Source: a bacterium
GTDB taxonomy: Bacteria; Bacillota; Clostridia; Lachnospirales; Lachnospiraceae
NCBI GenBank assembly: GCA_029012425.1
Contig: JAQXMB010000168.1
Span: 1 to 64,000 of the forward strand
Reading direction: 5' to 3'
Length of the DNA stretch: 64,000 nucleotides
Part shown: positions 1,821-40,781 of the stretch, piece after piece
Position numbering within the stretch: the stretch's first letter is position 1
How the letters are laid out: every line of letters starts with the position of its first letter
Notes under the pieces: model-generated
Told to the model about the DNA's origin: nothing
The model's input: the letters and a program-made list of their open reading frames with translations, nothing else
The model's database searches: none
Program-made: the position numbers and the translations under genes

Positions 1821-1828
1821 AAAAAACG

Positions 1829-1880: not shown

Positions 1881-1917
1881 CTTATAAGAGAGATATTGAA
1901 ATCAGGAGGATATAGAA

Positions 1918-3414: not shown

Positions 3415-3537
3415 AAGCCAATTGTGCAAAAATCGAAAGAATTAGCATAAAATTGTACGATTCTGACACTTTACAGTGGTTGTGAAAAGTTGCATACTGA
3501 TAATTGATGAAATATAAAAGAAAAGGAGAACAAAGCA

Positions 3538-4191
3538 ATGAAATTTTTTATTGATACAGCGAATGTAGAGGATATTCGTAAGGCAAATGACATGGGTGTT
3601 ATCTGTGGTGTTACAACCAACCCTTCACTGATCGCAAAAGAGGGTCGTGATTTCAATGAGGTAATCAAGGAGATTACGACAATCGTTGACGGACCGATCA
3701 GCGGTGAGGTTAAGGCTACTACTGTTGATGCAGAGGGCATGATTGCAGAGGGTCGTGAAATTGCCAAGATCCATCCCAATATGGTAGTTAAGATTCCTAT
3801 GACTGTTGAAGGTCTTAAGGCTACCAAGGTTCTTTCCGCTGAGGGAATCAAGACCAATGTTACATTGATCTTCTCTGCAAATCAGGCACTTTTAGCTGCA
3901 AGAGCAGGTGCTACCTATGTATCTCCCTTCCTTGGAAGATTGGATGACATCAGCCAGCCCGGTATCAACTTAATCGAGGATATCGTTCAGATTTTCGACA
4001 ACTACGGAATTGAGACAGAGATTATCGCTGCTTCTGTAAGAAATCCGATTCATGTAACCGATTGTGCACTTGCAGGTGCTGATATCGCAACTGTTCCTTA
4101 TGGCGTAATTGAGCAGATGACAAAGCATCCTTTGACCGATCAGGGTATTGAGAAATTCCAGAAGGATTACAAGGCAGTATTCGGAGAGTAA
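3538..4191 (+). CDS. Transaldolase / fructose-6-phosphate aldolase-like (short form)
   Basis: [40 protein letters not shown] motifs; 217 aa. Confidence 0.92.
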
Positions 4192-4230
4192 TCAGAACGG
4201 AAAGTACATAATTTAGAAGGAGAAAAAATC

Positions 4231-5067: not shown

Positions 5068-5996
5068 TTAAAATCGCAACAAGAGACAGCTACGGCAATG
5101 CTTTAGTTGAGCTCGGAAAAGAACATGAGAATTTAATCGTTCTCGATGCAGATCTTGCAGCAGCAACAAAGACTGGCGTTTTCAAAAAGGCTTTTCCTGA
5201 GCGCCATATTGACTGCGGAATTGCTGAGGCAAATATGACAGGTATTGCAGCAGGTATGTCTACTTGCGGAATGGTACCTTTTGTAAGTACATTTGCAATG
5301 TTTGCAGCCGGTCGTTCTTTTGAGCAGGTGCGTAATTCCATCGGATATCCGCACTTAAATGTAAAAATCGGTGCAACTCATGCCGGAATCTCAGTAGGTG
5401 AGGACGGAGCAACACATCAGTGTAATGAAGATATTGCATTGATGCGTGCAATTCCCGGAATGGTAGTTATCAATCCGAGTGATGATATTGAGGCAAAGGC
5501 AGCAGTTAAGGCTGCATATGAGTATGAGGGACCTGTTTACTTAAGATTTGGTCGTCTCGCAGTTCCGGTAATCAATGACAATGCTGATTATAAGTTTGAG
5601 ATTGGCAAGGGTGTTGAGCTGCGCGACGGTAAGGATTGCACAATCATTGCTACCGGACTTTGTGTATGTGAGGCGCTTGATGCGGCAGAGAAGCTTGCGG
5701 CAGAGGGAATCGATGCACAGGTCATCAACATTCATACCATCAAGCCGTTGGATGAGGAGCTTGTAATCGCAGCAGCGAAAAAGACCGGACGCATCTTCAC
5801 GGTTGAGGAGCATTCAATTATCGGTGGTCTCGGTGCAGCAGTCAGCGAGTGCTTAAGCGAGAAGTGCCCGACAAAGGTTACCCGCATCGGTGTGAATGAT
5901 GTATTTGGCGAATCGGGTCCTGCGAAGGAACTGTTACATAAGTATAAACTTGACGCTGATGGAATCGCTGAGAGAGTTTTGTCTGAGATGAAATAG
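5055..5996 (+). CDS. Transketolase, C-terminal subunit (GTG start)
   Basis: Pyr/C-terminal transketolase motifs; overlaps the preceding CDS by 13 nt. Confidence 0.94.
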
Positions 5997-6006
5997 GAGA
6001 GAACGC

Positions 6007-6699
6007 ATGTTAGAGCAGTTGAAAAAAGAGGTCTATGAAGCAAACATGGAGCTTCCCCGCAGAGGACTGATTACCTATACATGGGGCAATGTAAGCGGAA
6101 GAGACCGCGAGACCGGATACTTCGTGATCAAGCCCAGTGGCGTGGATTACGATGCGCTGACTCCGGACGATATGGTTGTTATGGATTTGGACGGAAACAA
6201 GATTGAAGGAAAGTATAAGCCTTCTTCTGATACAGCAACGCATATCGAATTATATAAAAAGTATGATGAGATTGGTGGTATTGTGCATACGCATTCACCT
6301 GAGGCGGTTGCATGGGCACAGGCCGGAAGAGATATCCCTCTGTATGGAACCACTCATGCGGATTACTTCCTCGGAGCGATTCCCTGTGCAAGAAACTTAA
6401 CCACCGAAGAAATCAATGATGCATATGAGAAGAATACAGGTGCTGTGATTATTGAGACCTTTGAGACACGAGGAATTCAGCCGATGTATACACCGGCAGT
6501 TCTCTGCCAGAACCATGGACCTTTTACATGGGGTAAGGATGCAGCGGAAGCTGTTCATAATGCGGTTGTACTCGAAGAGGTTGCAAAGATGGCGCGCAAT
6601 ACGGAGATGATTAATCCGAATGTGAAGCCTGCTCCCGACAGCATTAAAGAAAAGCATTTCTATCGTAAGCATGGCGAGAATGCCTACTATGGTCAGTAA
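6007..6699 (+). CDS. araD: L-ribulose-5-phosphate 4-epimerase
   Basis: [15 protein letters not shown], class II aldolase fold motifs, C-terminal HGENAYYGQ. Confidence 0.95.
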
Positions 6700-7888: not shown

Positions 7889-9370
7889 ATGAGTAAAGAA
7901 CGAAGACAAACATCATTAAAATCAAAGTTAATAATGCTTGTAACGATTGCGTTAGTTCCGTCGTTTGCACTGGCAATCAGTATTCTTTTGTCCATGTATA
8001 ATTACAGCAAAGCATATGATGAGATTATCAGTAACATGACGATCGCCAATAGCTACAACCTAAACTTTAAAGATGAATTGGATGAGAGTATTTATCGTCT
8101 GGTTGCCGGAAGTATTACACTTGAGAGCATTGAGGAAGATGATTCCGTAAGCAATCCGTATCAGCTCACGAGAGAGCTCCGTCGCGACTTTGAGGCGCTG
8201 GTTGCGATTACAACCGATCGTGAGAGTGAATTGTGGCTGCAGAGTCTGCTTCGAAATCTGGATACGCTTGAAAATCGTATTGATGATATCATGTATAACC
8301 TTGAGGAAGGCGGACATTACGATGAAAATATCGTGATGCTGGATAACAATATCTATATTCTGACTGAGCTGGTACAGGATGACATTCAGTACTATATTTA
8401 TTATCAGACGAAGAGTATCGAGCATTTAAAGGCGCAGCTGAATGTTCAGATGCATCAATTTATCATGGTATTTGCAATCATCGCGGCACTGATCCTTGCG
8501 CTTGTTTTGGGATTTTCGGCACAGATTGTATCGGGAATTACAGGACCGGTAGCGAGACTGGCTCAGGTGACACAGGAGGTGGCAAGCGGAAAGCTGTCTG
8601 CAAGGGCAAGCGCGGATGGGCCGACAGAGATTGCGGAACTGGCTGCTTCTGTAAATGATATGACCGCACATCTGGATGTTATGATGGATAAAATCAAAGA
8701 GGATGAGCGAAAAATGCGTCATGCAGAGCTTCGTCTTCTTCAGGAACAGATCAATCCGCACTTCTTATATAATACACTGGATACAATTATCTGGCTGATT
8801 GAGGGAAATTCTCCGGAGGAAGCTGTGGATATGGTTGTCTCGCTGTCACAGTTTTTCCGCTTAGTATTAAGTCATGGAAAAGAGTATATCTCGATTCGCG
8901 ATGAGGAGCAGCATATTCGAAGCTATCTGAAAATCCAGCAGGCGAGGTATCACGATATTTTGGAATACGAGATATCCATTGATCCGGAAATATATCCGTA
9001 TACGATACTGAAGCTGACACTTCAGCCGCTTGTGGAGAATGCGCTTTACCATGGAATCAAATACAAGCGGGCCATGGGTAAAATTACAGTCACAGGCCGG
9101 CTGGACAACAAACGAATTATTCTCACTGTCTCCGATAACGGCGTTGGTATGGATCAGGAAAAACTGACTCAGCTGTGCCGGGAGATCGAGCGTCCCTGCA
9201 AGGATACAGAGGGTGGTTTTGGTCTGGCGAATGTGAATGAGCGGATTCGTATGAATTTCGGATCCTACTATGGTATGGCAATCAGCTCGGTGCCGGGAGA
9301 GGGAACAACGGTTACTGTTGTGATCCCGGCAGTCCCGATTGAACAGGAAGGAGAGGTGCGTCATGAATAA
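7889..9370 (+). CDS. Membrane sensor histidine kinase (YesM/LytS-like, HAMP + His_kinase)
   Basis: HAMP region; LRLLQEQINPHFLYNTLDTIIWL; LQPLVENALYHG; C-terminal ATPase G-boxes. Confidence 0.93.
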   Translation: MSKERRQTSLKSKLIMLVTIALVPSFALAISILLSMYNYSKAYDEIISNMTIANSYNLNFKDELDESIYRLVAGSITLESIEEDDSVSNPYQLTRELRRDFEALVAITTDRESELWLQSLLRNLDTLENRIDDIMYNLEEGGHYDENIVMLDNNIYILTELVQDDIQYYIYYQTKSIEHLKAQLNVQMHQFIMVFAIIAALILALVLGFSAQIVSGITGPVARLAQVTQEVASGKLSARASADGPTEIAELAASVNDMTAHLDVMMDKIKEDERKMRHAELRLLQEQINPHFLYNTLDTIIWLIEGNSPEEAVDMVVSLSQFFRLVLSHGKEYISIRDEEQHIRSYLKIQQARYHDILEYEISIDPEIYPYTILKLTLQPLVENALYHGIKYKRAMGKITVTGRLDNKRIILTVSDNGVGMDQEKLTQLCREIERPCKDTEGGFGLANVNERIRMNFGSYYGMAISSVPGEGTTVTVVIPAVPIEQEGEVRHE

Positions 9371-10394
9371 AGATCGTATCATTGGGGCACTGCTTTTGCT
9401 CCTGATTGCAGTTGCCATGATATTTTTGACCATAAGTGGCGCGTTTGGGAAAAAAGAGCCAATGGTTGAGGAGATAAAAGAAGAACAGGAAGATGAAAAT
9501 CTGATTGTTGTTGGATTTTCGCAGGTCGGAAGCGAGTCGATATGGCGAACCACGCATACGCGCTCGTTACAGGAGGCGCTTTCAAAAGAAAATGGATTTT
9601 TCCTTCAGTACAGCAACGCGCGCCAAAAGCAGGAGAACCAGATTAAGGCAATCCGCGGATTTATATCACAGCGCGTAGACTATATTGTATTCTCGCCGGC
9701 AACAGAGGACGGATGGGAGACGGTTCTGACAGAGGCAAAGGATGCGGGAATTCCCGTAATTCTCGTGGATCGTAAGATTGCCGAGAGCGAGAGCGATTTG
9801 TATACGACCTGGGTTGGAAGCGATATGACTGCAGAGGGTCTACGCGCAGGGCAGTGGCTGGCGTATGAACAGGCGCGCAGAGGAAGAGCGGAGGCGGAGC
9901 TTAATATTGTCGTGTTAAAGGGTACGATTGATTCTACCTCCGAGCGCGGAAGAACAGCAGGATTTGAACAGATAGCAAAAAAACATGACAACTGGCATAT
10001 CCTGTGCAGTGAATCGGGAGATTTCACCACCTCAAAGGGAAAAGAGGTCATGGCCCAGCTTTTGAAGCGCTATCCGGATATTGATGTGGTTGTCAGTCAA
10101 AATGATGAGATGACATTCGGTGCGATGGAGGCCATTCGGGAGGCGGGCCTTGCGACGGGAATTCATGGTCGGATTACGATCATTTCATTTGACAGTGTTA
10201 AAGAAGCACTCGAACTTGTGGAAGAAGGAAGTATCAATTGCGATGTCGAGTGTAATCCGTTGCAGGGAGAGCTTGTTGCAGAGGTAATAAGAAAGCTTGA
10301 ACGCGGAGAAAAGGTAGAAAAAGAGTACTTCGTCGAGGAAAAAGTATTCACGAGAGCGAATGTGAAGGATTACCTGGATGAGCGACTTTATTAA
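9363..10394 (+). CDS. Membrane-anchored periplasmic sugar-binding protein (LacI/YtfQ-like fold)
   Basis: Single N-terminal TM, VVGFSQVGSESIWRTTHTRSLQEAL; start refined to ATG 9363, overlapping the HK stop. Confidence 0.88.
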   Translation: MNKDRIIGALLLLLIAVAMIFLTISGAFGKKEPMVEEIKEEQEDENLIVVGFSQVGSESIWRTTHTRSLQEALSKENGFFLQYSNARQKQENQIKAIRGFISQRVDYIVFSPATEDGWETVLTEAKDAGIPVILVDRKIAESESDLYTTWVGSDMTAEGLRAGQWLAYEQARRGRAEAELNIVVLKGTIDSTSERGRTAGFEQIAKKHDNWHILCSESGDFTTSKGKEVMAQLLKRYPDIDVVVSQNDEMTFGAMEAIREAGLATGIHGRITIISFDSVKEALELVEEGSINCDVECNPLQGELVAEVIRKLERGEKVEKEYFVEEKVFTRANVKDYLDERLY

Positions 10395-10408
10395 TTGGGA
10401 GAGATTGG

Positions 10409-12022
10409 ATGTTAAAAGTATTTTTGGTTGAGGATGAAAGCGTTGTCCGTGAGGCGCTGCGTGATAACATACCGTGGCAGCAGTATGGTTATCGTTTTGT
10501 GGGAGAAGCCGGAGATGGAGAGATGGCACTTCCGCTGATTCGAAAGACGATGCCTGATGTGCTGATTACGGACATAAAAATGCCGTTTATGGATGGCCTT
10601 GCGCTCAGTCATATGGTAAAGCAGGAATATCCGGATATGAAGATTATCATTATCAGCGGTTATGATGATTTCGATTATGCAAGGCAGGCGATTGCGGAGG
10701 GCGTGGAACAGTATCTGCTGAAACCGATTACGAGAAGCTCGTTGCAGAAAGCGCTCGCAGAGCTTCGCGAGAAGATTGAGGCAGAGCGTGAACAGAAAAA
10801 TTATATGAAGAAATTCCAAAGCGATATGCAGGAGTATGAGCAGTACTTTTTGCGGAATTTCTTTGAAAAAGTATTTGAAGGAAAACTTTCGGTACAGGAG
10901 ATATATGAACTTGCAGGAAAGCATAACCTGGATATTGAGGCACCTTGCTACAATTTAATGTTGCTTAGCGTGCAGGCACCTCCGAGAAGCGACAATATGC
11001 TTCAGCGTGCCGCCGATGACTGCAGGGAAGAATTGATGCGATACTTTTTGCGATTCCCGGAATGTATTGCGTTCCGCTGGAATGTAAGTACCTACGGAGT
11101 CATGATCAAAGGTGAACCGGAGAGTATTTCTGAGCGCACAAAAGTTCATATGGCGGAGATTGAACGAATCTGTACACAGACTTCCGACCTTGAATGGTAC
11201 GCTGCAGCAGGAGAGGCAGTCGAACGATTCAGTATGCTCGGAGAGTGTTACAGCAAACTGAATCATCGGTATGCATATCGCTATCTTGCTCCGGGTCGTC
11301 ATATTTTGACGGAGGATGCAGTTGCAATTGCATCGCAGGAGACAGAAACCGGAAGTCTTAGAAATATCGATATCAATAAAGTAGACCCGGAGATTATCCG
11401 TGGATTTTTAAATAACGGTCAGCAAAATGAAGTACAGGAGTTTGTCGAGAACTACATGGAGACGCTTGGGGATGCAATTCACTCGAGATTATTCCGGGAT
11501 TATCTGCTTCTTAATATCCAGTTTACAGTTCAGGCATATGTGGAAGGTCTGGGCTGCTCACAGCAGGAGTTTCTGACAAGTGTAGGAGCGGACCAGATTC
11601 ATGAGCTTGTGACAGATCATAAATCAATGGAAGAATATGTGAAGCGATTGTTCGTCAAGGCACTCTGCATAAGAGATGAGAAACAGAGCAGTCAGGGGAA
11701 AAAGGTATTGCGACAGGCGCTTGATTATATTGAAGCCAATTATACACAGCCGACACTCAGCTTGAATGAGGTTGCAGGTGCAATTGAGATGAGTCCCAAC
11801 TATTTTAGTGCCATGTTTTCACAGGAAATGAAACAGACCTTTGTGGAGTATGTTACCGCGCGCCGTATGGAACTTGCCAAAAAACTTTTGCAGGAAAATG
11901 AGCTTAGCGCAAGTGAGATTGCCGCCGCAGTCGGATATAAGGATTCACACTATTTCAGCTTTGTGTTCAAAAAGACACAGGGATGCTCTCCGAGAGAATA
12001 CCGCTCGGGAGCACAGCAATAA
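10409..12022 (+). CDS. Response regulator, REC + AraC-type HTH (YesN-like)
   Basis: REC domain (VLITDIKMPFMDGLAL), C-terminal double HTH (SPNYFSAMFSQEMKQTFVEYVTARR). Confidence 0.93.
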   Translation: MLKVFLVEDESVVREALRDNIPWQQYGYRFVGEAGDGEMALPLIRKTMPDVLITDIKMPFMDGLALSHMVKQEYPDMKIIIISGYDDFDYARQAIAEGVEQYLLKPITRSSLQKALAELREKIEAEREQKNYMKKFQSDMQEYEQYFLRNFFEKVFEGKLSVQEIYELAGKHNLDIEAPCYNLMLLSVQAPPRSDNMLQRAADDCREELMRYFLRFPECIAFRWNVSTYGVMIKGEPESISERTKVHMAEIERICTQTSDLEWYAAAGEAVERFSMLGECYSKLNHRYAYRYLAPGRHILTEDAVAIASQETETGSLRNIDINKVDPEIIRGFLNNGQQNEVQEFVENYMETLGDAIHSRLFRDYLLLNIQFTVQAYVEGLGCSQQEFLTSVGADQIHELVTDHKSMEEYVKRLFVKALCIRDEKQSSQGKKVLRQALDYIEANYTQPTLSLNEVAGAIEMSPNYFSAMFSQEMKQTFVEYVTARRMELAKKLLQENELSASEIAAAVGYKDSHYFSFVFKKTQGCSPREYRSGAQQ

Positions 12023-25036: not shown

Positions 25037-25885
25037 ATGAGAGAAAAACATGGCTTAAATGTAAAAAAGAGAAGAATGATCGCATATGTGCTTCTTATCG
25101 CAATCGCGGTAATCTGTCTGTTCTGGCTGTATATTCTCGTTGTGAATGCAACCCGGACGGATGCAGAGATGAAGCGCGGATTTACAATGATACCGGCCGG
25201 CAATCTTTGGGTAAACTGGAAGAATCTGCTTGAAAGTCCGTTGCCTGTGATTCGGAGTATGTGTAACAGTCTGATTGTATCGACTTTTGCATCGGTGTTC
25301 AGCATCTATTTTGCAGCATTGGCAGCCTATGGATTTCATATGTATGAATTCCGGGGAAAACATGTGCTGATGACATTTGTTCTGATGATTATGATGGTTC
25401 CGACGCAGGTTAATACGCTTGGTTATCTGCAGCTCGTTAACCGCATGAATCTGGCAGATACATTTTTATCATTGATCTTGCCGCGACTTGCGGTCCCGGT
25501 GACCTTCTATTATGTGAAGCAGTATCTGGAAAGCATGTCCTTGCAATCACTTGTGGAGGCGGCAAGAATCGATGGCGCTGGGGAAATGCATATTTTTCAC
25601 AGGATGATCGTCCCGCTGATTCGTCCGGCGCTGGCGGTTCAGATTATTTTTGAGTTTGTTGCAAGCTGGAACAATTATTTTCTTCCGGCGTTGCTTCTCC
25701 ATTCCGATGATAAAAAGACGCTGCCGATTATCATCGGATTGCTTCGGAGTGCGAACTTTGTTGACCAGGATGAGGGACAGATTTATGTTTGCATTGCATT
25801 TGCAATTTTACCGGTGGTAGTGATATATCTGCTGCTTTCAAAAATGATTATTCAAGGCTTAACAGCAGGAGGAGATAAGGGCTGA
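25037..25885 (+). CDS. Carbohydrate ABC transporter permease (MalG/UgpE family)
   Basis: EAARIDGAGEMHIFHRMIVPLIRP EAA loop. Confidence 0.92.
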   Translation: MREKHGLNVKKRRMIAYVLLIAIAVICLFWLYILVVNATRTDAEMKRGFTMIPAGNLWVNWKNLLESPLPVIRSMCNSLIVSTFASVFSIYFAALAAYGFHMYEFRGKHVLMTFVLMIMMVPTQVNTLGYLQLVNRMNLADTFLSLILPRLAVPVTFYYVKQYLESMSLQSLVEAARIDGAGEMHIFHRMIVPLIRPALAVQIIFEFVASWNNYFLPALLLHSDDKKTLPIIIGLLRSANFVDQDEGQIYVCIAFAILPVVVIYLLLSKMIIQGLTAGGDKG

Positions 25886-27444
25886 TGAAACAGATGACTT
25901 TTGCGCAGTACAAGGATAAAGTGCTTGGCTGCTGGTGTGGAAAAAATATCGGAGGTGTGCTTGGAGCACCGTTTGAGTGTTTCAGGCAGATAAATGATGT
26001 AGATTTTTATGTGCAGGATTTGTCGCAGGGACCGCCGCCGAACGACGATTTGGATTTGCAGATTGTATGGCTGGCTGCGGTAGAAAAATACGGAAGAACT
26101 GTGAATGCTGCCATACTTGGAGAGTATTGGCTGTCTTACATTACACCGAATTGGGTAGAATACGGCATGGCAAAGGCGAATCTGCGAGCCGGACTCGTTC
26201 CCCCGTTATCGGGAACGGTTGATAATACATACGGCAACAGCTGTGGTTGCTTTATCCGCTCAGAGATATGGGCGTGTTTGGCACCCGGACATCCGAATCT
26301 GGCAGCGCGCTATGCATACGAGGATGCAATTGTAGACCACACGAATGAGGGAGTGCTCGGAGAAGTATTTTGTGCTGCGATGGAGAGCGCGGCCTTTGTG
26401 GAAAACAATCTTTGGCAGCTGATTGATATCGGGTTGTCATATATTCCGGAAAACAGTGCGATGGCACGCGCGATCAATGAGGCATGCGACTGCTATCGCG
26501 AGGGCGTGAGTGTTCGGGAAGCCAGAGAGCGCATCCATAACAGTGCGCCGGGCACATTCGGAATTCAGGGAATCAAGCTGTGCGAGATTAAGGAAAAGGA
26601 CAATGAGAACATGGCTCTCGGTGAGCCTGGATTCGATGCACCTGAGAATGTCGCCTATATGATTGCGGGGCTGCTCTACGGAGAGGGAGATTTCGGAAAG
26701 AGCCTGACAATCGCGAATTCATTTGGCGAGGACACGGACTGTATCTGCGCCACGCTCGGTGCGCTGTTCGGCATAATACATGGAGAAAAAGCTCTGCCGG
26801 AGAAGTGGAAGGCCCCGCTCGACGATAAAATCGCAACGCTTTGTATCAACAAGACGAGTAACGGAATCTGGGTGCCTGAGACAGCAACAGAATTAACAGA
26901 ACGCGTGATACGCACAATGCCGTCTTTCCTTGGGCAGGAACTGTGTGATATTTTTGCCGAGGGAGGTATGACGGTACTGGTGCAGGAAGGAGAAGCGCTT
27001 TACTGCGAAGACCCGAATGCATATATGTACCGCATGAATTCATTTGTGAAGAATGGGTATCTGACAGTCCGTGAGTTGAGTGAACTATCTCCGTATGTGG
27101 TGCGATATGATTTTCCGGCAATGCGTGTGTGTGTTGATTACGGGAAATCGGTACACTTCAAAAAGGGTGAAGCGCGAACCGTTAAGGTTACAGTGAGCAA
27201 CGCATTTTATCTGAATGAGATGCACTGGGTACAGATTCGGGCATATGCGCCGGACGGAGTGTCATTTGAGACCGGAAGCAGTGCGCTCCTTCCGTTAAAC
27301 AACTTAAGCGGTGTGTCGGTAGAAAAAGAATTTGTCATCCACACAGATGAATATGAAGAAGCACGACTAGAGATCGTGATTGACTGTAGTTTGACCGGGC
27401 GACATTCGAGTGGGCTTGTGAAAGTGGTTCTCTATAGAGAATAG
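25885..27444 (+). CDS. ADP-ribosylglycohydrolase (DraG-like) family protein with C-terminal beta-sandwich-like extension
   Basis: KDKVLGCWCGKNIGGVLGAPFE; PPNDDLDLQIVWL and NSFGEDTDCICATLGALFGIIHG metal-ligand motifs. Confidence 0.9.
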   Translation: MKQMTFAQYKDKVLGCWCGKNIGGVLGAPFECFRQINDVDFYVQDLSQGPPPNDDLDLQIVWLAAVEKYGRTVNAAILGEYWLSYITPNWVEYGMAKANLRAGLVPPLSGTVDNTYGNSCGCFIRSEIWACLAPGHPNLAARYAYEDAIVDHTNEGVLGEVFCAAMESAAFVENNLWQLIDIGLSYIPENSAMARAINEACDCYREGVSVREARERIHNSAPGTFGIQGIKLCEIKEKDNENMALGEPGFDAPENVAYMIAGLLYGEGDFGKSLTIANSFGEDTDCICATLGALFGIIHGEKALPEKWKAPLDDKIATLCINKTSNGIWVPETATELTERVIRTMPSFLGQELCDIFAEGGMTVLVQEGEALYCEDPNAYMYRMNSFVKNGYLTVRELSELSPYVVRYDFPAMRVCVDYGKSVHFKKGEARTVKVTVSNAFYLNEMHWVQIRAYAPDGVSFETGSSALLPLNNLSGVSVEKEFVIHTDEYEEARLEIVIDCSLTGRHSSGLVKVVLYRE

Positions 27445-30343: not shown

Positions 30344-31375
30344 ATGAAGACTTTAGAAGGATATATCAAGGGAATCAATTTAGGCGGCTGGTTATCACAA
30401 TGTGTACACACCAAGGAGCACTATGATACTTTTCTTCAGGAAGAAGATGTGAAGCGTGCGAGTGAATTCGGCATCGATCATCTGCGTGTGCCGATTGATT
30501 ATGATCTGGTTGAGGATAAAGAGGGTAATTTCAAGGAGGACGGATTTGCTTATATTCAGAGGGCAATTGACTGGTGTAAGAAGTATAACCTGAAAATGAT
30601 CCTTGATTTGCACAAGACGGCCGGATATTCATTTGATGCCGGAGAGAAGGAAGATGGTTTTTTTGATAATGAAGAATATCAGGAACGCTTTTACCGTCGC
30701 TGGGAGGAGTTCGCAAGACGCTTTGCCTGCAACGAGCAGATGCTTGCCTTTGAATTGTTAAATGAGGTGACCAAGGAGAGCTACTGTAGTCTATGGAACC
30801 AAATCGCGGCTCAGTGTATCAGGCGTATTCGTAAAATCGCACCGACGATTAAGATTCTTGTCGGAGGATATAACAATAACAGCGTGCTTACGGTAAAATA
30901 CATGGATGCGCCGCAGGATGAGAATATTGTTTACAATTTCCATTGCTATGAGCCATTGATTTTTACGCATCAGGGTGCATATTGGATTGAGACGATGGAC
31001 AAGCAGTTTCGTATGAAGTTTGACAGCAAATTCGGATATTATAAGGAAGCAAGTAAACAATATCTGTTAGATGAACAGATTTGCTTTCCGAATAAAATCG
31101 ATGATGATGAGACGGTTGGCGAGAATTATTTTGAAATGCTGTTTGAGGAGGCAATTGCAACGGCAGAGGAACGAGATGTCGCACTATACTGTGGAGAATA
31201 CGGTGTGATCAATCTCGCATCGCCGGAAGATACGGTAAAATGGTATCGTGCGATTCACGCGGTGTTTGAGCGACATGGAATCGGGCGTGCTGCATGGAGC
31301 TATCAGGCGATGGATTTCGGACTTGTTGACGAACATCTGGATACCGTTCGGGAGGAACTTGCCAAGCTTCTGTAG
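30344..31375 (+). CDS. Glycoside hydrolase family 5 (cellulase-fold), cytoplasmic
   Basis: GINLGGWLSQ, LDLHKTAGYSF, AFELLNEVT, YCGEYGV; no signal peptide. Confidence 0.9.
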   Translation: MKTLEGYIKGINLGGWLSQCVHTKEHYDTFLQEEDVKRASEFGIDHLRVPIDYDLVEDKEGNFKEDGFAYIQRAIDWCKKYNLKMILDLHKTAGYSFDAGEKEDGFFDNEEYQERFYRRWEEFARRFACNEQMLAFELLNEVTKESYCSLWNQIAAQCIRRIRKIAPTIKILVGGYNNNSVLTVKYMDAPQDENIVYNFHCYEPLIFTHQGAYWIETMDKQFRMKFDSKFGYYKEASKQYLLDEQICFPNKIDDDETVGENYFEMLFEEAIATAEERDVALYCGEYGVINLASPEDTVKWYRAIHAVFERHGIGRAAWSYQAMDFGLVDEHLDTVREELAKLL

Positions 31376-31388
31376 AATCGGTTATAAT
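31359..31388 (+). promoter_or_regulatory. SigA-type promoter TTGCCA-N18-TATAAT overlapping the GH5 3' end
   Basis: 31359-31364 and 31383-31388. Confidence 0.65.
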
Positions 31389-31403: not shown

Positions 31404-31436
31404 AAAAGCAGGGACGATTCGTCCCTGCTTTTGTTA
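31404..31436 (+). terminator. Terminator/attenuator between GH5 and SBP gene
   Basis: AAAAGCAGGGAC-gattc-GTCCCTGCTTTTG. Confidence 0.85.
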
Positions 31437-31451: not shown

Positions 31452-32537
31452 GTGAAACATTCCGCACGATATGTACATGCATCTGTTGCATTGGTGATTC
31501 TTATGGTAATCATAGTCATTGGCAGCTTTGCTTTTTTTCAGATAAAGACGAAGCAGCTCGCGCACAACACATCGGATGTTGGAGAAAAATACTATGACAG
31601 ACATTATGTGCTCATCACGGACGGAATGAATACGAAATTCTGGGAATCGGTATATGAAGGAGCAAAAGCTTACGGCGAGCAACACGGCTCATTTGTCGAA
31701 TTGCTTGGAGAAGCAACCGGAGAATCCTATGACTGTCAGGGGCTGCTGAAAAAAGCCATTGCTGAGAAGGTTGATGGAATCATTGTAATGCCGGATCAGG
31801 CATATGGCACCAGATGGCTGATTGACGAGGCTGTGGACCGGGGGATTCCGGTTGTTACGGTATATCAGGACAATACAGCCAGTAAGCGGATCAGCTATGT
31901 GGGAGTGAGCAACTATAATCTGGGAACCTTATACGGGAATCAGTTATGCTCCTGTGCGGAGAAGATTTTTTTCAAAAATTACAATCTTCCCGAGGACGAA
32001 AAGAAACATGAGGTCAATGCGCTGGTGCTTATGAGTGCGGATGCAGCCGACACGAGTGAGAGCATTCTCTTTTCCGGAATTCAGAATGCGGTAAAGAAAA
32101 ATGAAAAATATGCAAACCTCATTAACATTCAAACGCTTGCAATCGAAACGAGAGGAACTTTTTCGGCGGAGGAATCCATTCGTGATATTTTTATGAATAC
32201 GGCATCCCTGCCGGATATCATTGTTTGTCTGGATGAGTTGAAAACAACCTGTGCCTATCAGGCGCTTGTCGATTACAATAAAGTGGGACAAATGTATGAG
32301 ATTGGCTTCTATCAGTCGGATACCATTTTAAAGGCATTGCAGCGAAGGGCAATCACATCAACAATCACAATTGACACGAATCAGATGGGCGCGTACTGCG
32401 TAGAGGCATTGGACGAGTATTTAAGCGGCGGATATGTCAGTGATTACTACAGTGTAGATACTTCAGTCATCTATCCGGATAACGCAAATAAGTATATGGA
32501 GGAAGCGCACAATGAACAAGCGATGGAAGAACCTTAG
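31452..32537 (+). CDS. Membrane-anchored sugar-binding protein (LacI/PBP1 type)
   Basis: N-terminal TM, periplasmic-binding fold; GTG start 31452 with SD ggagg (the ORF track start at 31401 lies in the terminator). Confidence 0.87.
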   Translation: MKHSARYVHASVALVILMVIIVIGSFAFFQIKTKQLAHNTSDVGEKYYDRHYVLITDGMNTKFWESVYEGAKAYGEQHGSFVELLGEATGESYDCQGLLKKAIAEKVDGIIVMPDQAYGTRWLIDEAVDRGIPVVTVYQDNTASKRISYVGVSNYNLGTLYGNQLCSCAEKIFFKNYNLPEDEKKHEVNALVLMSADAADTSESILFSGIQNAVKKNEKYANLINIQTLAIETRGTFSAEESIRDIFMNTASLPDIIVCLDELKTTCAYQALVDYNKVGQMYEIGFYQSDTILKALQRRAITSTITIDTNQMGAYCVEALDEYLSGGYVSDYYSVDTSVIYPDNANKYMEEAHNEQAMEEP

Positions 32538-34014
32538 TATACAAAATAAACTGATGTTTGCATTTGTCATTACGATTATCTGTTTTGTCGGTCTGAATTT
32601 TTTTACATACTACAGCATCAATCTTGTTGTGAACCATATGAATAATGTCTACAGCTCCAATATGGAATTGAATGACCTGTTGGAAAATCTGGATCAGGTG
32701 CAGACCTATATGACGGAGTATCTGAAGACAAAAACAACGGATTCGCTCGAGGATTATTTCCGCAGCGAGCAGGAATACCGGCGAAAGCTGGAAGCGTTGA
32801 ATGACAAACCGACAGATAATCGTCGAAAACTGGCAGAAAAAAATATCAAAAACATGTCAGTACAGTATTTAGAGACTGTCGAGCGTGCGATTGAGGCAAA
32901 GCGTAAACGAAATGTCGAGCAGTACAGACTTTACTACGATAATTGTACAGAGCTGTATGACGGAATTACCGCCAGCATTACCGCTCTGAATAATCAGCAG
33001 TTTATTGAAAACTCAGCAAGATACAAGGAGTACTATCAGTTTGTTTCTGTCATGGAACACGGCTGTAATATTCTGCTTTTGATTATTGCGGCGTTTAACC
33101 TCATTCTTATCGTATTGCTGACAAGGAATATTGTCAGTCCCCTGCGAAGTCTTGCGCAAAAGGCAGATGTTGTGGCAACGGGAGACTTTGATACGGAACT
33201 GCTTCCGGTTGAATCGGGCGACGAAATCGGAATTGTGAGCAGTGCGTTCAACAAGATGATTGTCAGTATTCGCGAATATATTGAGCGGCTGAAACACAGC
33301 ATGGAGATTGAGCGGCAGATGAAAGAAAAGGAATTGCTGATGGAAGCGCATTTGAAGGATGCAAAGCTGAAATATCTTCAGGCGCAGATTAATCCGCATT
33401 TTCTGTTTAATACGCTCAACGCCGGTGCGCAGCTTGCCATGATGGAGGATGCGCAGAGGTCCTATGATTATATTCAAAACATGGCACAGTTTTTCCGCTA
33501 TAATATTAAGAAGGACAACGATGTCGTCTATGTGAAGGATGAGATTGAGCTGATCGATCATTATATGTACATATTAAATGTCCGTTTTTCCGGAGAATTG
33601 CTCTTTGAGAAGGAGATTGATGAACGGTTACTCAATCTGCGTATTCCGAGCATGATTCTGCAGCCGATTGTTGAAAACGCGGTAAACTATGGTGTGCGAA
33701 ATGTGCCATGGGAAAAAAGCATTAAACTGACCCTTCAAGAAGAAGGAGATGTGGCGTCTCTTTCCATCACAGATAATGGAATCGGAATGAGCGGAGAGCT
33801 TATTCATAAAATCATGACATCGCAGCTTGCGCCAAGCGATTTATCCGGCGATTCAAACGGTATCGGGCTTGACAATGTAATCGCGCGACTGTCTATTTTC
33901 TATAACAGAGAGGATGTATTTTGCATTCACAGTGACGGTGAAGACATGGGGACGACGGTCACAATTCGAATTCCGCTTAATGTGCGGGAAATGCCGGAGG
34001 TAGCAAATGTATAA
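32512..34014 (+). CDS. Sensor histidine kinase (YesM/LytS-like)
   Basis: HAMP; LKYLQAQINPHFLFNTLNAGAQLA; LQPIVENAVNYG. Confidence 0.94.
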   Translation: MNKRWKNLSIQNKLMFAFVITIICFVGLNFFTYYSINLVVNHMNNVYSSNMELNDLLENLDQVQTYMTEYLKTKTTDSLEDYFRSEQEYRRKLEALNDKPTDNRRKLAEKNIKNMSVQYLETVERAIEAKRKRNVEQYRLYYDNCTELYDGITASITALNNQQFIENSARYKEYYQFVSVMEHGCNILLLIIAAFNLILIVLLTRNIVSPLRSLAQKADVVATGDFDTELLPVESGDEIGIVSSAFNKMIVSIREYIERLKHSMEIERQMKEKELLMEAHLKDAKLKYLQAQINPHFLFNTLNAGAQLAMMEDAQRSYDYIQNMAQFFRYNIKKDNDVVYVKDEIELIDHYMYILNVRFSGELLFEKEIDERLLNLRIPSMILQPIVENAVNYGVRNVPWEKSIKLTLQEEGDVASLSITDNGIGMSGELIHKIMTSQLAPSDLSGDSNGIGLDNVIARLSIFYNREDVFCIHSDGEDMGTTVTIRIPLNVREMPEVANV

Positions 34015-35623
34015 GATTATGATTGCGGACGATGAGGGAATTGTCATTGATTCGCTGAAGTTTATTATCGAAAAAGAATTTAAAGATGAATGTGTGATCG
34101 AATCGGCGAAGACCGGCCGGAGTGTGATTGAACTGGCGGAGTGGTTTCGGCCGGATATTGCATTTATGGATATTCAGATGCCCGGAATTAACGGAATTGA
34201 TGTAATGCGTGAGATTCGTGAGAATAATTCCAGAACGATATTCGTTGTTGTCAGTGCGTATGATAAGTTTGATTATGCAAAAGAGGCAATCAATCTGGGT
34301 GTTATGGAGTACCTGAATAAGCCGATTGAAAAGTCGAGCATTGTAAGCGTCCTGAAAAAAGCGATGGCAAAAATTGACAGGGATCGCGAAAAACGAAGCA
34401 GTGATTTGATTATCCGCGAGAAGATGGAAGCGGTGGTACCGATTATTGAGAATGGCTTCATCTATAATCTGCTGTTTCAGGAAAATTTCACGGAGGATAT
34501 TGAAAATTATAAGACACTGATCGGCGTTACGGCAGAATATGGGTATATGGTCGTACTTGTATTTGGCGAGCGACAGGAAGGAAGTCATATGACAAATGCG
34601 GTTGGCGCCAGCATCCGAATGCAAAATTACTATGCAAAAATCCGCGATCTTGTCACGGAGTACTTCCCGAATATCATTATGGGAACGACCATGGCAAATA
34701 AGATTGCAATGCTTGTGCCCTGTGAGAAGGGAACCGTCTCCTATGAGGAACGCATTGAGATTATTGAACATACGAGAAAGCTGTGCAGAAAGCTGCAGGA
34801 AAAGACGGATGTAGCATTTCGTATAGGAATCGGTTCTGTGGAACCTATGGAAGATGCGATTGTTTCATATAATGAAGCACTGGCTGCACTCGTGCAGACC
34901 AGAGGAAGTGTTGCCCATGTCGAGGATGTGGGCTATGGCTGTGAGTATGAGGAAAACTATCCGATTGAATTGGAAAGACGATTGTTTGAAGCTGTCGACC
35001 ATGGAAAACCGGAGGAAGCGGTCATGACGGTGAACCGGTTTTTTGACTGGATGGAAGAAAACTATTCAGACTGTGTGATGGACATTAAACTGAAATCGCT
35101 GGAGTTTGTTTTGTGGGCAGAGCATATTGCCTATGAAAAGGGAGGAAATGTCTATGAGTTTCGTTCCCGTTCCGATTATCTCCCGAAATTATTGGACTAT
35201 TCGTCACTTGCACAGGTGAGAAGCTGGTTTGTGGACAAGGTGGCGGATGCCTGCCGAAAGGTATTGGCGAAGAAAGAAGGAAAAAGTGGCAGCAGTGTCA
35301 TAGAAAATGCAAAGCGATATATCAGAGACAACTTCAAAAAAGATATTTCCTTAGATGATGTTTCCAAGGAAGTTCAGATTAGTCCGTATTACTTTTCAAA
35401 GCTGTTCAAGGAGGAGACCGGGCAGAATTTTATCGAATATCTGACAAACGCCCGTATCGAAGAGGCAAAGCATCTGCTTCAGGAAACGGATATGAGTATG
35501 AAAGAAATCGGTGTGATGACGGGGTATTCCGATCCAAACTATTTTAGCCGTATTTTTAAAAAGACAATCGGCGTAACCCCCACGGAGTTCAAAGAGTCAA
35601 AAGGAGCGCATAGCGAAGGATGA
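34007..35623 (+). CDS. Response regulator, REC + AraC-type HTH (YesN-like)
   Basis: IAFMDIQMPGINGIDVM; C-terminal AraC HTH SPYYFSKLFKEETGQNFIEYL. Confidence 0.94.
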   Translation: MYKIMIADDEGIVIDSLKFIIEKEFKDECVIESAKTGRSVIELAEWFRPDIAFMDIQMPGINGIDVMREIRENNSRTIFVVVSAYDKFDYAKEAINLGVMEYLNKPIEKSSIVSVLKKAMAKIDRDREKRSSDLIIREKMEAVVPIIENGFIYNLLFQENFTEDIENYKTLIGVTAEYGYMVVLVFGERQEGSHMTNAVGASIRMQNYYAKIRDLVTEYFPNIIMGTTMANKIAMLVPCEKGTVSYEERIEIIEHTRKLCRKLQEKTDVAFRIGIGSVEPMEDAIVSYNEALAALVQTRGSVAHVEDVGYGCEYEENYPIELERRLFEAVDHGKPEEAVMTVNRFFDWMEENYSDCVMDIKLKSLEFVLWAEHIAYEKGGNVYEFRSRSDYLPKLLDYSSLAQVRSWFVDKVADACRKVLAKKEGKSGSSVIENAKRYIRDNFKKDISLDDVSKEVQISPYYFSKLFKEETGQNFIEYLTNARIEEAKHLLQETDMSMKEIGVMTGYSDPNYFSRIFKKTIGVTPTEFKESKGAHSEG

Positions 35624-36672
35624 AGAGAGGATACGCGATGAGAATAAGAAACCTGCGAAAACTTAGCCTGCTAATTGCAATGTTGTTTTTGCTTGCCGGT
35701 TGTGGGAAAAGCGAGGATGCCGATGTGCCCACAGAGCAGGATGAAAGTGAAATTCAGATCGGGGTGAGCTTTGACTCCTTTGTCATTGAGCGGTGGCTTA
35801 CCGACCGGGATGTATTTGTTGCAACTGCAAAGGAAGCCGGGGCACAGGTCAATGTACAGAATGCAAACGGCGATGTTGAGGAACAAATCAGTCATATTGA
35901 ATATTTCATCAAACAGAAGATGGATGTGATCGTCATTGTCGCGACGGACTGTAACCGGCTTTCCGATATCATCAGGGAAGCGAAATCACAGGGAATCAAG
36001 GTGATTGCCTATGATCGTCTGATTAACGATGCAGATGTTGATCTGTATATCTCCTTTGATAACCGGCGTGTGGGAGAGCTGATGGCAGAGGGGTTGCTGG
36101 AAGGTGAAGCACTCCACAAGGTGATTATGATCTGCGGTTCTCCAACGGATGCCAATGTTGCGGAAGTCGAGGAGGGATTTCGCCGTATAATGGAGGAGGC
36201 ACAGGTGGATATTATTGATACAACCTATGCCGATGGCTGGCGTGCAGAGCTTGCAGGCGAGTATGTGTATGAGAATATTGACAAGATTATGAAGGTGGAT
36301 GGAATCATGTGCGGTAATGATAATCTTGCGACAATGGCAGTACATGCACTTGCGGAGAAACAGCTGGCGGGAAAAATTCAGGTGGTCGGTCAGGACGGAG
36401 ACCTGGAGGCGTGTCAGCGGATTGTTGAGGGAACGCAGAAGATGACTGTTTATAAGCCGGTGCAAAAAGAGGCAATGGTTGCCGCAAATTATGCAATCTG
36501 CCTTGCAAAGGGCGATTTGCTCGAGGAATTAGAACATATGCAAAATGGAGCTTACTCGATTCCGTATGTGCTGCTGGAGCCGATAAGCGTTGATAGCAGT
36601 AACATTGACGATATTATTATTGGCGGGGGCGTGCATCTGGCGGATGATGTTTATTTGAATGTACCGCAATAG
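35620..36672 (+). CDS. Sugar-binding lipoprotein (ChvE/XylF-like)
   Basis: LLAGCG lipobox; GVSFDSFVIERWLTDRDVF, AYDRLINDADVDLYISFDN; overlaps RR by ATGA. Confidence 0.9.
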   Translation: MKRGYAMRIRNLRKLSLLIAMLFLLAGCGKSEDADVPTEQDESEIQIGVSFDSFVIERWLTDRDVFVATAKEAGAQVNVQNANGDVEEQISHIEYFIKQKMDVIVIVATDCNRLSDIIREAKSQGIKVIAYDRLINDADVDLYISFDNRRVGELMAEGLLEGEALHKVIMICGSPTDANVAEVEEGFRRIMEEAQVDIIDTTYADGWRAELAGEYVYENIDKIMKVDGIMCGNDNLATMAVHALAEKQLAGKIQVVGQDGDLEACQRIVEGTQKMTVYKPVQKEAMVAANYAICLAKGDLLEELEHMQNGAYSIPYVLLEPISVDSSNIDDIIIGGGVHLADDVYLNVPQ

Positions 36673-36709: not shown

Positions 36710-36752
36710 AAACACTAGCACGAATTTGAAATTGTGCTAGTGTTTATCTTTT
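36710..36752 (+). terminator. Intrinsic terminator
   Basis: AAACACTAGCAC...GTGCTAGTGTTTATCTTTT. Confidence 0.85.
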
Positions 36753-36819
36753 GCGCACAAAAGGTGCTTAAAAATTTGAAGATACTCATAAATTTGTCCT
36801 ATCGTATTTGTGTTATCTT

Positions 36820-36858
36820 ACTTGTGTAAACAAGTTCTGGCTCTTTCTTACATATAAT
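36820..36858 (+). promoter_or_regulatory. Palindrome ACTTGT-gtaa-ACAAGT (36820-36835) upstream of a TATAAT -10 (36853-36858) lacking a good -35
   Basis: Direct reading; arrangement typical of an activator-dependent promoter. Confidence 0.6.
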
Positions 36859-36892: not shown

Positions 36893-37969
36893 ATGAAAAG
36901 AAAAGTACTCAGCGTTTTACTTTGTGTAGCAATGGCTGCAACAATGTTAGTAGGATGCGGAAGCAAGAAAGCAGATGCCGGATCATCAGGCGGCGGATTA
37001 GTTGGTGTAGCAATGCCCACGAAAGATTTACAGCGTTGGAATCAGGATGGTTCTAACATGGAGAAAGAGTTGAAGGCAGCCGGTTATGATGTAGACCTTC
37101 AGTACGCTTCAAACGATGTAGCAACTCAGGTTTCTCAGATTGAGAACATGATTTCTAACGGATGTAAGATGTTAGTAATCGCTTCTATCGATGGTGAGTC
37201 TCTTGGAACAGTTCTTGCTCAGGCTAAGGACGCTAAGATTCCTGTAATCGCATATGACCGTTTGATCATGAAGTCAGATGCAGTTACATATTATGCAACA
37301 TTTGATAACTATATGGTTGGAACCAAGCAGGGCGAGTACATTGTTAAGGCATTGGATCTTGACAACGCAGCAGGACCGTTTAACTTAGAGATCTTCACCG
37401 GTGACCCTGGTGACAACAACGCCAGATTCTTCTATGGCGGAGCTATGGATGTACTTCAGAAATACATCGACGAAGGCAAGTTAATCGTTAAGTCCGGACA
37501 GGTTGATTTCGAGACAGTTGCTACAGCAAACTGGGATAGCGCTAAGGCTCAGGAGAGAATGGAGAACATCATTTCTTCTTATTATGCTGATGGAACACAG
37601 TTGGATGTAGTTCTTTGCTCAAACGACTCTACCGCATTTGGTGTTGAGAACGCTCTTGAAGCAAACTACACAGGCGCATGGCCGGTAATCACCGGACAGG
37701 ATTGCGATATCGCAAATGTTAAGAACATGATTGCCGGAAAGCAGTCAATGTCTATCTTCAAGGATACCCGTACATTAGCAACTCAGGTAGTAGCTATGGT
37801 TGACGCAGTTATGAAGGGCGGCGAGCCTCCGATTAACGATACAAAGAGCTATGACAATGGTACAGGAATCATTCCTTCATACCTTTGCGAGCCTGTATTC
37901 GCAGATGTTAACAACTACAAAGAGCTGTTAATCGATTCTGGATACTATACAGAGGATCAGTTGAAATAA
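36893..37969 (+). CDS. chvE: Multiple-sugar ABC transporter substrate-binding lipoprotein (ChvE-like)
   Basis: MLVGCG lipobox; GVAMPTKDLQRWNQDGSNMEKELK; ITGQDCDIANVKNMI. Confidence 0.93.
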   Translation: MKRKVLSVLLCVAMAATMLVGCGSKKADAGSSGGGLVGVAMPTKDLQRWNQDGSNMEKELKAAGYDVDLQYASNDVATQVSQIENMISNGCKMLVIASIDGESLGTVLAQAKDAKIPVIAYDRLIMKSDAVTYYATFDNYMVGTKQGEYIVKALDLDNAAGPFNLEIFTGDPGDNNARFFYGGAMDVLQKYIDEGKLIVKSGQVDFETVATANWDSAKAQERMENIISSYYADGTQLDVVLCSNDSTAFGVENALEANYTGAWPVITGQDCDIANVKNMIAGKQSMSIFKDTRTLATQVVAMVDAVMKGGEPPINDTKSYDNGTGIIPSYLCEPVFADVNNYKELLIDSGYYTEDQLK

Positions 37970-38015: not shown

Positions 38016-38060
38016 TTAATAAGATAGCACATATTTTTTGATTTTTTGGGAGGGATACAA

Positions 38061-39605
38061 TTGGCGAACATATTATTGGAAATGAAAAATATCACCAAAA
38101 CATTCCCTGGCGTAAAAGCACTTGACAATGTGAATCTGAAGGTCGAAGAGGGCGAGATTCATGCATTGGTTGGTGAAAACGGCGCGGGTAAGTCGACCCT
38201 GATGAATGTACTGAGTGGAATCTATCCCTATGGTACCTATGAAGGTGATATCATTTATAATGGTGAGGTTTGTAAGTTCAACCACATCAAGGATAGTGAG
38301 GAACGCGGTATTGTTATTATCCATCAGGAGCTGGCGCTGATTCCTTATATGACCATTGGCGAAAACATGTTCCTTGGAAACGAGAAGAAAAAAGGAGCAG
38401 CTATCGACTGGCAGGAGACCTATGGTCAGGCAGATAAATATTTGAAAACAGTAGGCTTGAAGGAGTCTTCAAGAACATTGATTAAAGATATCGGTGTTGG
38501 AAAGCAACAGTTGGTAGAGATTGCCAAGGCATTGGCAAAAAATGCAAAGCTTCTTATTTTGGATGAGCCCACAGCATCCTTGAATGAGTCTGATTCGAAG
38601 GCGTTGTTGGATTTGATGCTTCAATTCAAAAAAGAAGGAATGACTTCGATTATTATATCTCATAAACTGAATGAGATTTCTTATGTGGCAGATAAGATTA
38701 CAGTTATTCGAGACGGAAGTACGATTGAGACATTGGATAAGAAGACCGATGACATCAATGAGGCTCGTATTATTCAGGGAATGGTAGGCCGCGAGCTTAC
38801 CGATCGTTTCCCGAAGCGTGAGAAGATGCCGGTTGGAGATGTGAGTCTTGAGGTGAAGAACTGGAATGTTTATCATCCACTGTATACAGAGCGCAAGGTT
38901 GTTGACGATGTCAGCATAAAGGTACACAGAGGTGAGGTTGTAGGTATCTCAGGTTTGATGGGAGCCGGCCGTACCGAGCTTGCAATGAGTATTTTTGGTA
39001 AGAGCTACGGAACCAATATCAGTGGTCAGCTCTTCCTGGATGGAAAAGAAGTAGTCTTAAAAAATGTACACGATGCAATCAAACATGGCATCGCGTATGT
39101 AACGGAAGACCGAAAAGGTAACGGTCTGATTTTGTCAAATCCGATTTCGATTAACACAACGCTTGCAAATATGGATGCAGTATCTACCAGAGGCAGGATT
39201 GACAAGGATAAGGAGTATGCGGTTGCTGTTGAATATAAGGAAAAACTGAGAACCAAATGCCCGACTGTTATGCAGAATGTAGGTAACCTGAGTGGTGGAA
39301 ATATGCAGAAGGTTTTGCTTGGAAAGTGGATGTTTACCGATGCAGACATCATGATTTTGGATGAACCCACCAGAGGTATTGATGTTGGAGCAAAGTATGA
39401 GATTTACTGCATTATCAATCAGCTTGTGGCTGAAGGAAAATCCGTTATCGTGATTTCTTCAGAGCTTCCGGAGATTCTTGGTATGTGTGACAGAATCTAT
39501 GTAATGAATGAAGGAAAAATGGTTGGAGAGCTGATGGCAGAGGAAGCTTCACAGGAGCGGATCATGTCAATGATCGTACAAACAGGCGAGAGCAAAGGGG
39601 AGTAA
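38061..39605 (+). CDS. gguA: Sugar ABC transporter ATP-binding protein (MmsA/GguA-like, two ABC domains)
   Basis: [34 protein letters not shown] start 38061 with SD gggagg. Confidence 0.93.
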
Positions 39606-39608
39606 ACT

Positions 39609-40781
39609 ATGAATAAGAATAATATTTTACAAATGGTAAAAAAGTATACAATGATCATTGTATTGGTCCTTGTTACACTGTTTTTTGCATGGCAGACAGG
39701 TGGTAAGATTCTCTTACCCCAGAATGTTAACAACTTGATTTTACAGAATGCATATGTATTCGTACTTGCAACCGGTATGTTGTTATGTATCTTAACCGGA
39801 GGTAACATTGACCTTTCTGTTGGTTCGGTTGTCTGCTTCGTCGGAGCAGTCGGAGCAACCCTGATGGAGAGTAAAAACATGAATGTCGGTCTTGCGATTG
39901 CTGTTATGGTTCTGATTGGTATTGCAATCGGTGCATGGCAGGGAGCATGGATTGCATTTGTACGCGTCCCGCCCTTTATCGTAACACTGGCAGGTATGCT
40001 TGTATTCCGTGGACTCAGTAATGTCGTATTAAATGGTCAGACCGTATCGTTAACATCAGAGGCCTTCGTTAAGCTTTTTGGTGGCGGAGCTGATTGTTAT
40101 GTTCCTGAGCTGTTTAATATCGGTGGTTTGAACGGAGCTTGTCTTGTTGCAGGAATCGCTGTTTGTATCATCTACATATTTGTTCAGATTAAAGATCGTG
40201 CAAGCCGAATGAAAAAGGGTTATGAGACAGAAAGTCTTACTAAGACAATTATTCGTACTGTATTAATCTGTCTGGTTGTAATTGCCTTTACCATTAAGCT
40301 TTCACAGCACAAGGGTATTCCTACCGCGTTAATCTGGGTAGCAGTTGTTATTTTGATTTATGGTTATATCACAGCAAATACAACAACCGGTCGTTACTTC
40401 TACGCAGTAGGTGGTAATGAGAAAGCAACAAAGCTTTCCGGAATTAATACAAACAAGGTTTACTTCCTTGCGTATACCAACATGGGATTGCTTTCTGCTC
40501 TGGCCGGAATGCTTACCATTGCTCGTATGACTTCTGCACAGCCGACTTACGGTCAGAACTACGAGATGGACGCCATCGGCTCCTGCTTTATCGGTGGTGC
40601 CTCTGCATACGGTGGAACCGGAACAGTTCCCGGAGTTATCGTCGGTGCGCTATTGATGGGTGTCATCAATCTTGGTATGTCAATCATGGGTGTAGATGCA
40701 AACTATCAGAAGGTCGTTAAAGGTCTTGTACTGCTCGGAGCAGTAATCTTCGATGTAGTAAACAAGAAGAACGACAGATAA
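39609..40781 (+). CDS. gguB: Sugar ABC transporter permease (GguB/MmsB-like)
   Basis: TGGNIDLSVGSVVCF; YAVGGNEKATKLSGI. Confidence 0.93.
   Translation: MNKNNILQMVKKYTMIIVLVLVTLFFAWQTGGKILLPQNVNNLILQNAYVFVLATGMLLCILTGGNIDLSVGSVVCFVGAVGATLMESKNMNVGLAIAVMVLIGIAIGAWQGAWIAFVRVPPFIVTLAGMLVFRGLSNVVLNGQTVSLTSEAFVKLFGGGADCYVPELFNIGGLNGACLVAGIAVCIIYIFVQIKDRASRMKKGYETESLTKTIIRTVLICLVVIAFTIKLSQHKGIPTALIWVAVVILIYGYITANTTTGRYFYAVGGNEKATKLSGINTNKVYFLAYTNMGLLSALAGMLTIARMTSAQPTYGQNYEMDAIGSCFIGGASAYGGTGTVPGVIVGALLMGVINLGMSIMGVDANYQKVVKGLVLLGAVIFDVVNKKNDR

Follow-up and report, generated by a model that had tools for sequence, protein, structure and literature searches.

A four-gene sugar-sensor cassette of Lachnospiraceae with two dissimilar sugar-binding proteins, the kinase-partner protein being substituted at the canonical ligand sites

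Described sugar sensors and the layout of the locus

The closest described relative of the locus is the three-component system XylFII-LytS-YesN from Clostridium beijerinckii (PDB entries 5xsj, 5xss and 5xsd). Its membrane-anchored sugar-binding protein (SBP), LytS-type kinase and YesN-type regulator all have counterparts in our cassette, and both are encoded beside a CUT2 sugar transporter. In XylFII the ligand sites (N, Y, W, D103, R, S, D and Q) are intact, while the corresponding SBP1 of our cassette has lost them. To our knowledge, the sensor unit of C. beijerinckii has no extra SBP, so that SBP2 is an added part. Judged by homology, the components thus appear to be those of XylFII-LytS-YesN except for the SBP1 pocket and the added SBP2. 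The nearest solved structures to SBP1 and to the kinase domain are those of GanP/GanS from Geobacillus stearothermophilus (6gq0, 6swj); the ligand of GanP is glucose/galactose and its sites are intact, whereas those of SBP1 are substituted.

The order SBP-HK-RR-SBP is also found in LevQRST from Streptococcus mutans (operon levTSRQ). In this system both SBPs are needed for full activity, LevQ (fourth gene) being essential for activation while LevT (first gene) exerts a negative signal via its transmembrane part (PMC3043104). By layout and published description, levTSRQ may be taken as one studied precedent for a four-gene arrangement. However, our kinase is not LevS-like, having two transmembrane segments and a HAMP domain where LevS has about 5 predicted segments, and LevQRST targets a PTS with no ABC transporter nearby, whereas our cassette adjoins ChvE-GguAB. 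A split into sensing and transport SBPs is already known from CuaDSR of Ruminiclostridium cellulolyticum, where CuaD senses and CuaA transports (PMC10384115). Separate proteins are encoded in our locus as well, but CuaDSR has a single sensing SBP, a cellobiose-specific lipoprotein (PMC10384115), and our sensor unit encodes two SBPs. No kinase-partner SBP without a pocket beside a second, pocket-bearing SBP was found in the literature searched, which lay outside the original C. beijerinckii papers.

The window (the whole stretch of DNA analysed, 64,000 nucleotides) contains the genes SBP1-HK-RR-SBP2 in this order (Table 1), and the order, ORFs and overlaps of the initial annotation could be confirmed: SBP1 and HK overlap by 26 nt (32512-32537), HK and RR by 8 nt (34007-34014), and the ATGA at 35620 is common to the RR stop and the SBP2 start. 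An alternative SBP2 start, the ATG at 35638, lies six codons further in. The ribosome site before it is the better one (AGAGAGGA, spacing 6 nt), and this ATG agrees with the N-termini of orthologues, which makes it more likely the true start than 35620; the RR-SBP2 junction may then be a 14-nt gap instead of the ATGA overlap. Pfam assigns Peripla_BP_4 to both SBPs (94 bits for SBP1, 181 bits for SBP2), HAMP, His_kinase and HATPase_c to HK, and Response_reg, GGDEF_2 and AraC HTH to RR.

Table 1. Features of the sensor cassette and of the adjoining transporter operon.
Feature	Position	Strand	Description
Promoter-like hexamers, GH5 gene end	31359..31388	+	TTGCCA-18-TATAAT; consensus match only, 11/12
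Terminator-like hairpin before SBP1	31404..31432	+	-25.4 kcal/mol, z -6.7
SBP1	31452..32537	+	membrane-anchored, XylFII/GanP-like; substituted ligand sites Y138, L206, D261, Y287, I307
HK	32512..34014	+	LytS-like helical sensor, HAMP, His_kinase (INPHFLFN, H296), HATPase_c
RR, YesN-type	34007..35623	+	receiver (D55), GGDEF_2-like, AraC HTH
SBP2	35620..36672 (start more likely 35638)	+	XylF-like lipoprotein, complete pocket
SBP2 pocket residues			R58 W59 D132 R133 D177 N179 W207 N233 D234 D259 K279
Intrinsic terminator of sensor operon	36710..36745	+	14-pair stem
Predicted RR operator	36767..36806	+	direct repeat AAATTTG at 36772 and 36793, 21 bp apart
TATAAT, probable -10 of chvE-gguAB promoter	36853..36858	+	read from sequence; no good -35
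ChvE, transport SBP	36893..37969	+	NCBIfam ChvE 485.5 bits, cut-off 460
GguA ATPase, exact start uncertain	38046..39605	+	NCBIfam GguA 841.5 bits, cut-off 810
GguB permease	39609..40781	+	NCBIfam GguB 488.9 bits, cut-off 450

The hexamers at the end of the GH5 gene are a possible promoter of the sensor operon. The hairpin between these hexamers and the SBP1 start could terminate the GH5 unit or serve the sensor operon as an attenuator in its leader. Directly upstream of the cassette, Pfam detects an arabinofuranosidase and the GH5 protein. Further away, the region 225-6699 is a pentose pathway block (FGGY sugar kinase, L-arabinose isomerase, transaldolase and a split transketolase), and at 25037-27444 a gene for an ABC sugar-type permease shares one base with the ADP-ribosylglycohydrolase-family gene that comes after it.

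Pockets of the two sugar-binding proteins and the sensor kinase

SBP1, a Peripla_BP_4 protein encoded ahead of HK and RR, has an N-terminal helix (residues 3-39 in the model) and no lipobox, as expected for a membrane-anchored protein of the XylFII-LytS-YesN kind. GanP (6gq0) and XylFII (5xsj, 5xss) are its nearest solved structures; of the related PDB entries, 6gq0 represents GanP, while AraP is 6sw4. The SBP1 model superposes on 5xsj with a TM score of 0.83 by target length, where the models were built from 4-sequence alignments, the pLDDT of SBP1 is fair (81) and open and closed forms are not told apart. By its sequence relationships we place SBP1 with XylFII and GanP among the SBPs of three-component systems.

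The ligand sites of SBP1 were located by alignment to E. coli RbsB and not on a ligand-bound structure; we take the sugar contacts of RbsB to include D89, R141, N190, D215 and Q235. XylFII and GanP keep D, R, D and Q in this alignment, whereas SBP1 of the window has Y138, L206, Y287 and I307 at these positions. Aligning SBP1 pairwise with GanP and with XylFII in HMMER gives the same substitutions, so that the sugar-binding residues of a kinase-partner SBP are missing. In cassettes of three genes, without SBP2, all four canonical sites are kept in 9 of 14 SBP1 proteins. In cassettes of four genes this holds for 0 of 104, and none of the sites is kept in 83 of these, including the window. Sites 89, 141 and 235 even vary more than the median column of four-gene SBP1. 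The idea of the initial annotation that one kinase could read two sugars was to be given up if one SBP lacked ligand residues; SBP1 lacks the canonical ones, not only in the window but as a rule across four-gene cassettes, and the idea is not supported.

The D89 site corresponds to D103 of XylFII, the residue mutated to alanine by the crystallographers (entry title of 5xsd). That alanine could be natural at this site in XylFII was ruled out, as 5xsd is the engineered D103A variant and the wild type has D. Decay of an SBP2 duplicate was also ruled out as the origin of SBP1, since no cassette lacks SBP1 and its subfamily is a different one (XylFII/GanP). The conservation of W16 and F/Y15 in four-gene SBP1 indicates that selection still acts on the fold and on part of the cleft. 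Facing positions across the cleft form hydrophobic-hydrophobic pairs in 45 of 104 proteins and acidic-basic pairs in 31 of 104; this matching is suggestive only, the acid-base pair being the ancestral state too. The window has another sensory cassette at 7889-12022, with the order HK-SBP-RR. Its SBP, unlike SBP1 of the second cassette, keeps D89, R141, N190 and D215, with C in place of Q235.

SBP2 has a lipobox (LLAGC), and a simple, unrefined lipobox pattern matched 65 of the 104 SBP2 proteins. It had been described as a ChvE/XylF-like lipoprotein, and of this description the lipoprotein and the XylF part hold while the likeness to ChvE does not: the NCBIfam score is 267.5 bits for xylF and 153 for ChvE, and the best PDB matches are XylF proteins (4ywh and 3m9w, E 1e-65 or better). 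XylF is the nearest NCBIfam model, yet the score stays under its equivalog cut-off of 389.55 bits. All 11 XylF-type pocket residues are present in the window. The 103 sequences counted as complete keep every one of these positions; across all 104 sequences, one of which lacks most positions and another the first two, 10 of the 11 are invariant wherever present, and the eleventh is N or D. When SBP2 and transport SBPs are placed in one tree, 42 of 45 SBP2 sequences form one clade (support 99) apart from transport XylF; the other three, from Bacilli, stand beside transport XylF, and a single SBP2 clade is not rejected (p-AU 0.59). SBP2 thus falls in the XylF part of the tree and has all pocket residues, but differs from transport XylF in not being encoded with its own xylGH and in lacking Q136, T222 and other letters that are fixed there. 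It appears to be derived from the transport protein XylF. Family and pocket point to a pentose as ligand, most likely xylose; given the pentose-rich neighbourhood, with sugar kinase, L-arabinose isomerase, transaldolase and transketolase genes at 225-5996, another pentose is possible.

HK has the LytS-type extracellular sensor, HAMP domain and PF06580 kinase of the XylFII-LytS-YesN kind, and RR is a matching YesN-type regulator with receiver and AraC HTH. A broad profile of the HK family matches LytSN, the LytS sensor domain crystallised with XylFII, with E 1e-16; the match of a Lachnospiraceae-only profile is weak but colinear (E 0.004). For the kinase domain, the GanS/GanP entries are nearest among the solved structures considered here, and the structure model of the kinase is uncertain overall (pTM 0.42). 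The similarity to LytSN suggests that SBP1 is probably still seated on the kinase as XylFII is. One locus (L127, 6020-7978, genome G201) encodes a LytS-type sensor and HAMP domain fused directly to the GGDEF_2-AraC part, with kinase and receiver missing, and this fusion, which would be a kinase-less membrane transcription factor, sits between SBP1 and SBP2. As both SBPs are retained although kinase and receiver are gone, the fusion supports a site of action at the sensor domain for both of them.

Distribution of the cassette and the transporter operon

Among 120 sampled Lachnospiraceae genomes, about a quarter have relatives of SBP2 (about 45-57% identity), with the gene order SBP1-HK-RR-SBP2 wherever the contig is long enough. 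The cassette set was assembled from SBP1 and HK profile searches of class and phylum samples, together with the earlier loci and the window; a scan of genome contigs with SBP2 alone yielded 6 loci. The Bacillota sample contains 119 cassettes with an SBP gene upstream of HK: 104 have four genes, 14 have three and one is at a contig edge. With the same order in 104 related cassettes, including the window, the arrangement is not due to chance. Divergent four-gene copies of one family (f168, L202-L209) have no CUT2 transporter downstream; two of them are near each other in genomes G655 and G839.

The initial annotation had placed SBP2 in the sensor operon, and the distances bear this out. The gap between RR and SBP2 has a median of -1 nt and is within 40 nt in 95 of 103 cases, while SBP2 and the transport SBP are separated by a median of 180 nt. 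In three-gene cassettes the distance from RR to the transport SBP (161-209 nt) is much like the latter. In 23 cassettes without a CUT2 transporter downstream, the unit ends with SBP2; the next genes sampled there are unrelated (e.g. starch synthase, DUF72, NYN) or the transporter is upstream, as in seven cassettes that have kept SBP2 (among them L056 and L141). It is also retained beside transport SBPs of the ChvE type, the XylF type and another type. Because SBP2 abuts RR even where the transporter is upstream or absent, it appears to go with the sensor and not with the transporter.

All three transporter proteins are above their NCBIfam cut-offs, and the nearest solved structure to the transport SBP ChvE is 4ys6. 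The proposal that ChvE-GguAB lies behind a terminator, with a promoter of its own, was borne out by the hairpin and the probable -10 box. A second permease gene follows GguB in ten of the other loci.

A 40-bp operator motif was trained on the sequences that precede the transporters of relatives, with the window left out. Wider motif searches had first returned the ribosome site alone, and the start regions were therefore trimmed. In this motif, approximate copies of AAAAATGTGCAGA and ACAAATTATTCCAG stand as a direct repeat some 20-21 bp apart. In the window it scores 16.3 at the predicted operator, the next best site in the 64 kb scoring 9.8. It is present in 37 of 60 transporter regions, most of them training regions, and in 0 of 60 shuffled ones. 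Where the transporter is upstream of the cassette (L056, L141), the motif is found before that transporter. A search for autoregulation found the motif (score at least 10) upstream of SBP1 in 0 of 116 regions. AraC-type regulators commonly bind direct repeats of this kind, and on these grounds RR is likely to control chvE-gguAB.

Proposed reading: a sensing SBP beside an adaptor SBP

Two SBPs of different subgroups are coupled to one HK-RR pair, as had been noted before. We consider it rather probable that together they make up a four-component sensor for a pentose, with its origin in systems of the XylFII-LytS-YesN kind. SBP2, a lipoprotein paralogue of XylF with a full pocket, would bind the sugar outside the cell. 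SBP1, which has the SBP fold without the canonical sugar residues, would stay on the kinase as adaptor or co-receptor, and the sugar-loaded SBP2 would act on the assembly of SBP1 and HK. HK would then phosphorylate RR, which would bind the direct repeat and switch on chvE-gguA-gguB. As SBP1 has no pocket left, SBP2 is the most likely point of entry for the sugar signal. This reading is supported by the conserved four-gene unit, the pocket loss in SBP1, the pocket retention in SBP2 and the operator footprint. The identity of the ligand, the contacts (SBP1-SBP2, SBP2-HK) and the direction of the response are what we infer from these. The data suggest that the sugar-tasting job has moved from SBP1 to SBP2.

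On the HK tree, SBP2 presence requires 3 changes and an intact R/D/Q in SBP1 requires 4, with 3 independent pairs. The association thus rests on few evolutionary events: it goes back to one or two deep events, after which the states were long retained, exceptions apart. A Fisher test of SBP2 presence against R/D/Q (p 4e-8) was set aside as it ignores relatedness, which on the tree leaves 3-4 changes. Three cassettes from Bacilli (L058, L196, L197) combine SBP2 with an SBP1 in which D89 is lost but R, D and Q are still present. Conversely, L125 has a substituted SBP1, with no SBP2 anywhere in its genome, and four divergent three-gene cassettes also have changed SBP1 sites. Firmer evidence than the association appears to come from the lasting constraint on the SBP2 pocket where the SBP1 pocket has none.

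An SBP1 that holds the kinase off until sugar-loaded SBP2 relieves or overrides it would resemble S. mutans, where the first-gene product LevT is negative and the fourth-gene product LevQ essential (PMC3043104). LevS, with its roughly 5 membrane segments, is a different kinase, and we regard this version as somewhat unlikely, though the analogy makes antagonism between the two SBPs possible. A less likely version has SBP1 bind another ligand in a remodelled pocket, SBP2 a pentose, and one kinase integrate both. SBP1 does keep the aromatic pair F63/W64, position 190 is D, N or S in most sequences, and in some clades new letters have become conserved, for example EKGS (E..K/R..G..S/A). However, in the group of the window L, I, Y and V stand in place of the polar contacts (LIYI, YIYI, MLYV), which is unfit for a sugar; sites 89, 141 and 235 are, as mentioned, more variable than the median column, and the substitutes differ between clades. 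The two-sugar idea is thus disfavoured by the sequences.

Several SBPs serving one ABC permease are a known arrangement, and with its descent from transport XylF and its full pocket SBP2 might be a second substrate donor that is only a neighbour of a sensor SBP1-HK-RR working alone. We consider this quite improbable, as SBP2 is coupled to RR and, in the window, separated from the transporter by a terminator. Moreover, it follows the sensor and persists beside transporters of quite different kinds, which bring an SBP themselves, and SBP1 would be left without a plausible sugar site. Returning to the preferred reading of SBP2 as sensor and SBP1 as adaptor, a bolder form of it can be put forward tentatively: SBP1 would be ligand-blind, its cleft possibly packed shut, and would serve as a permanent membrane-tethered dock for a signalling of SBP on SBP that would be in wide use in Bacillota.

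Three-component sugar sensing has so far been explained by a ligand that closes the kinase-seated SBP. In about a hundred sampled cassettes this protein is apparently unable to bind its sugar, and the ability would lie in another protein. Annotation pipelines probably call both SBP1 and SBP2 plain sugar ABC transporter SBPs. The four-gene cassette is common in gut Lachnospiraceae, and our reading would change the protein chosen for ligand assays and biosensors. It would also offer a clear case of a receptor role shifting between paralogues.
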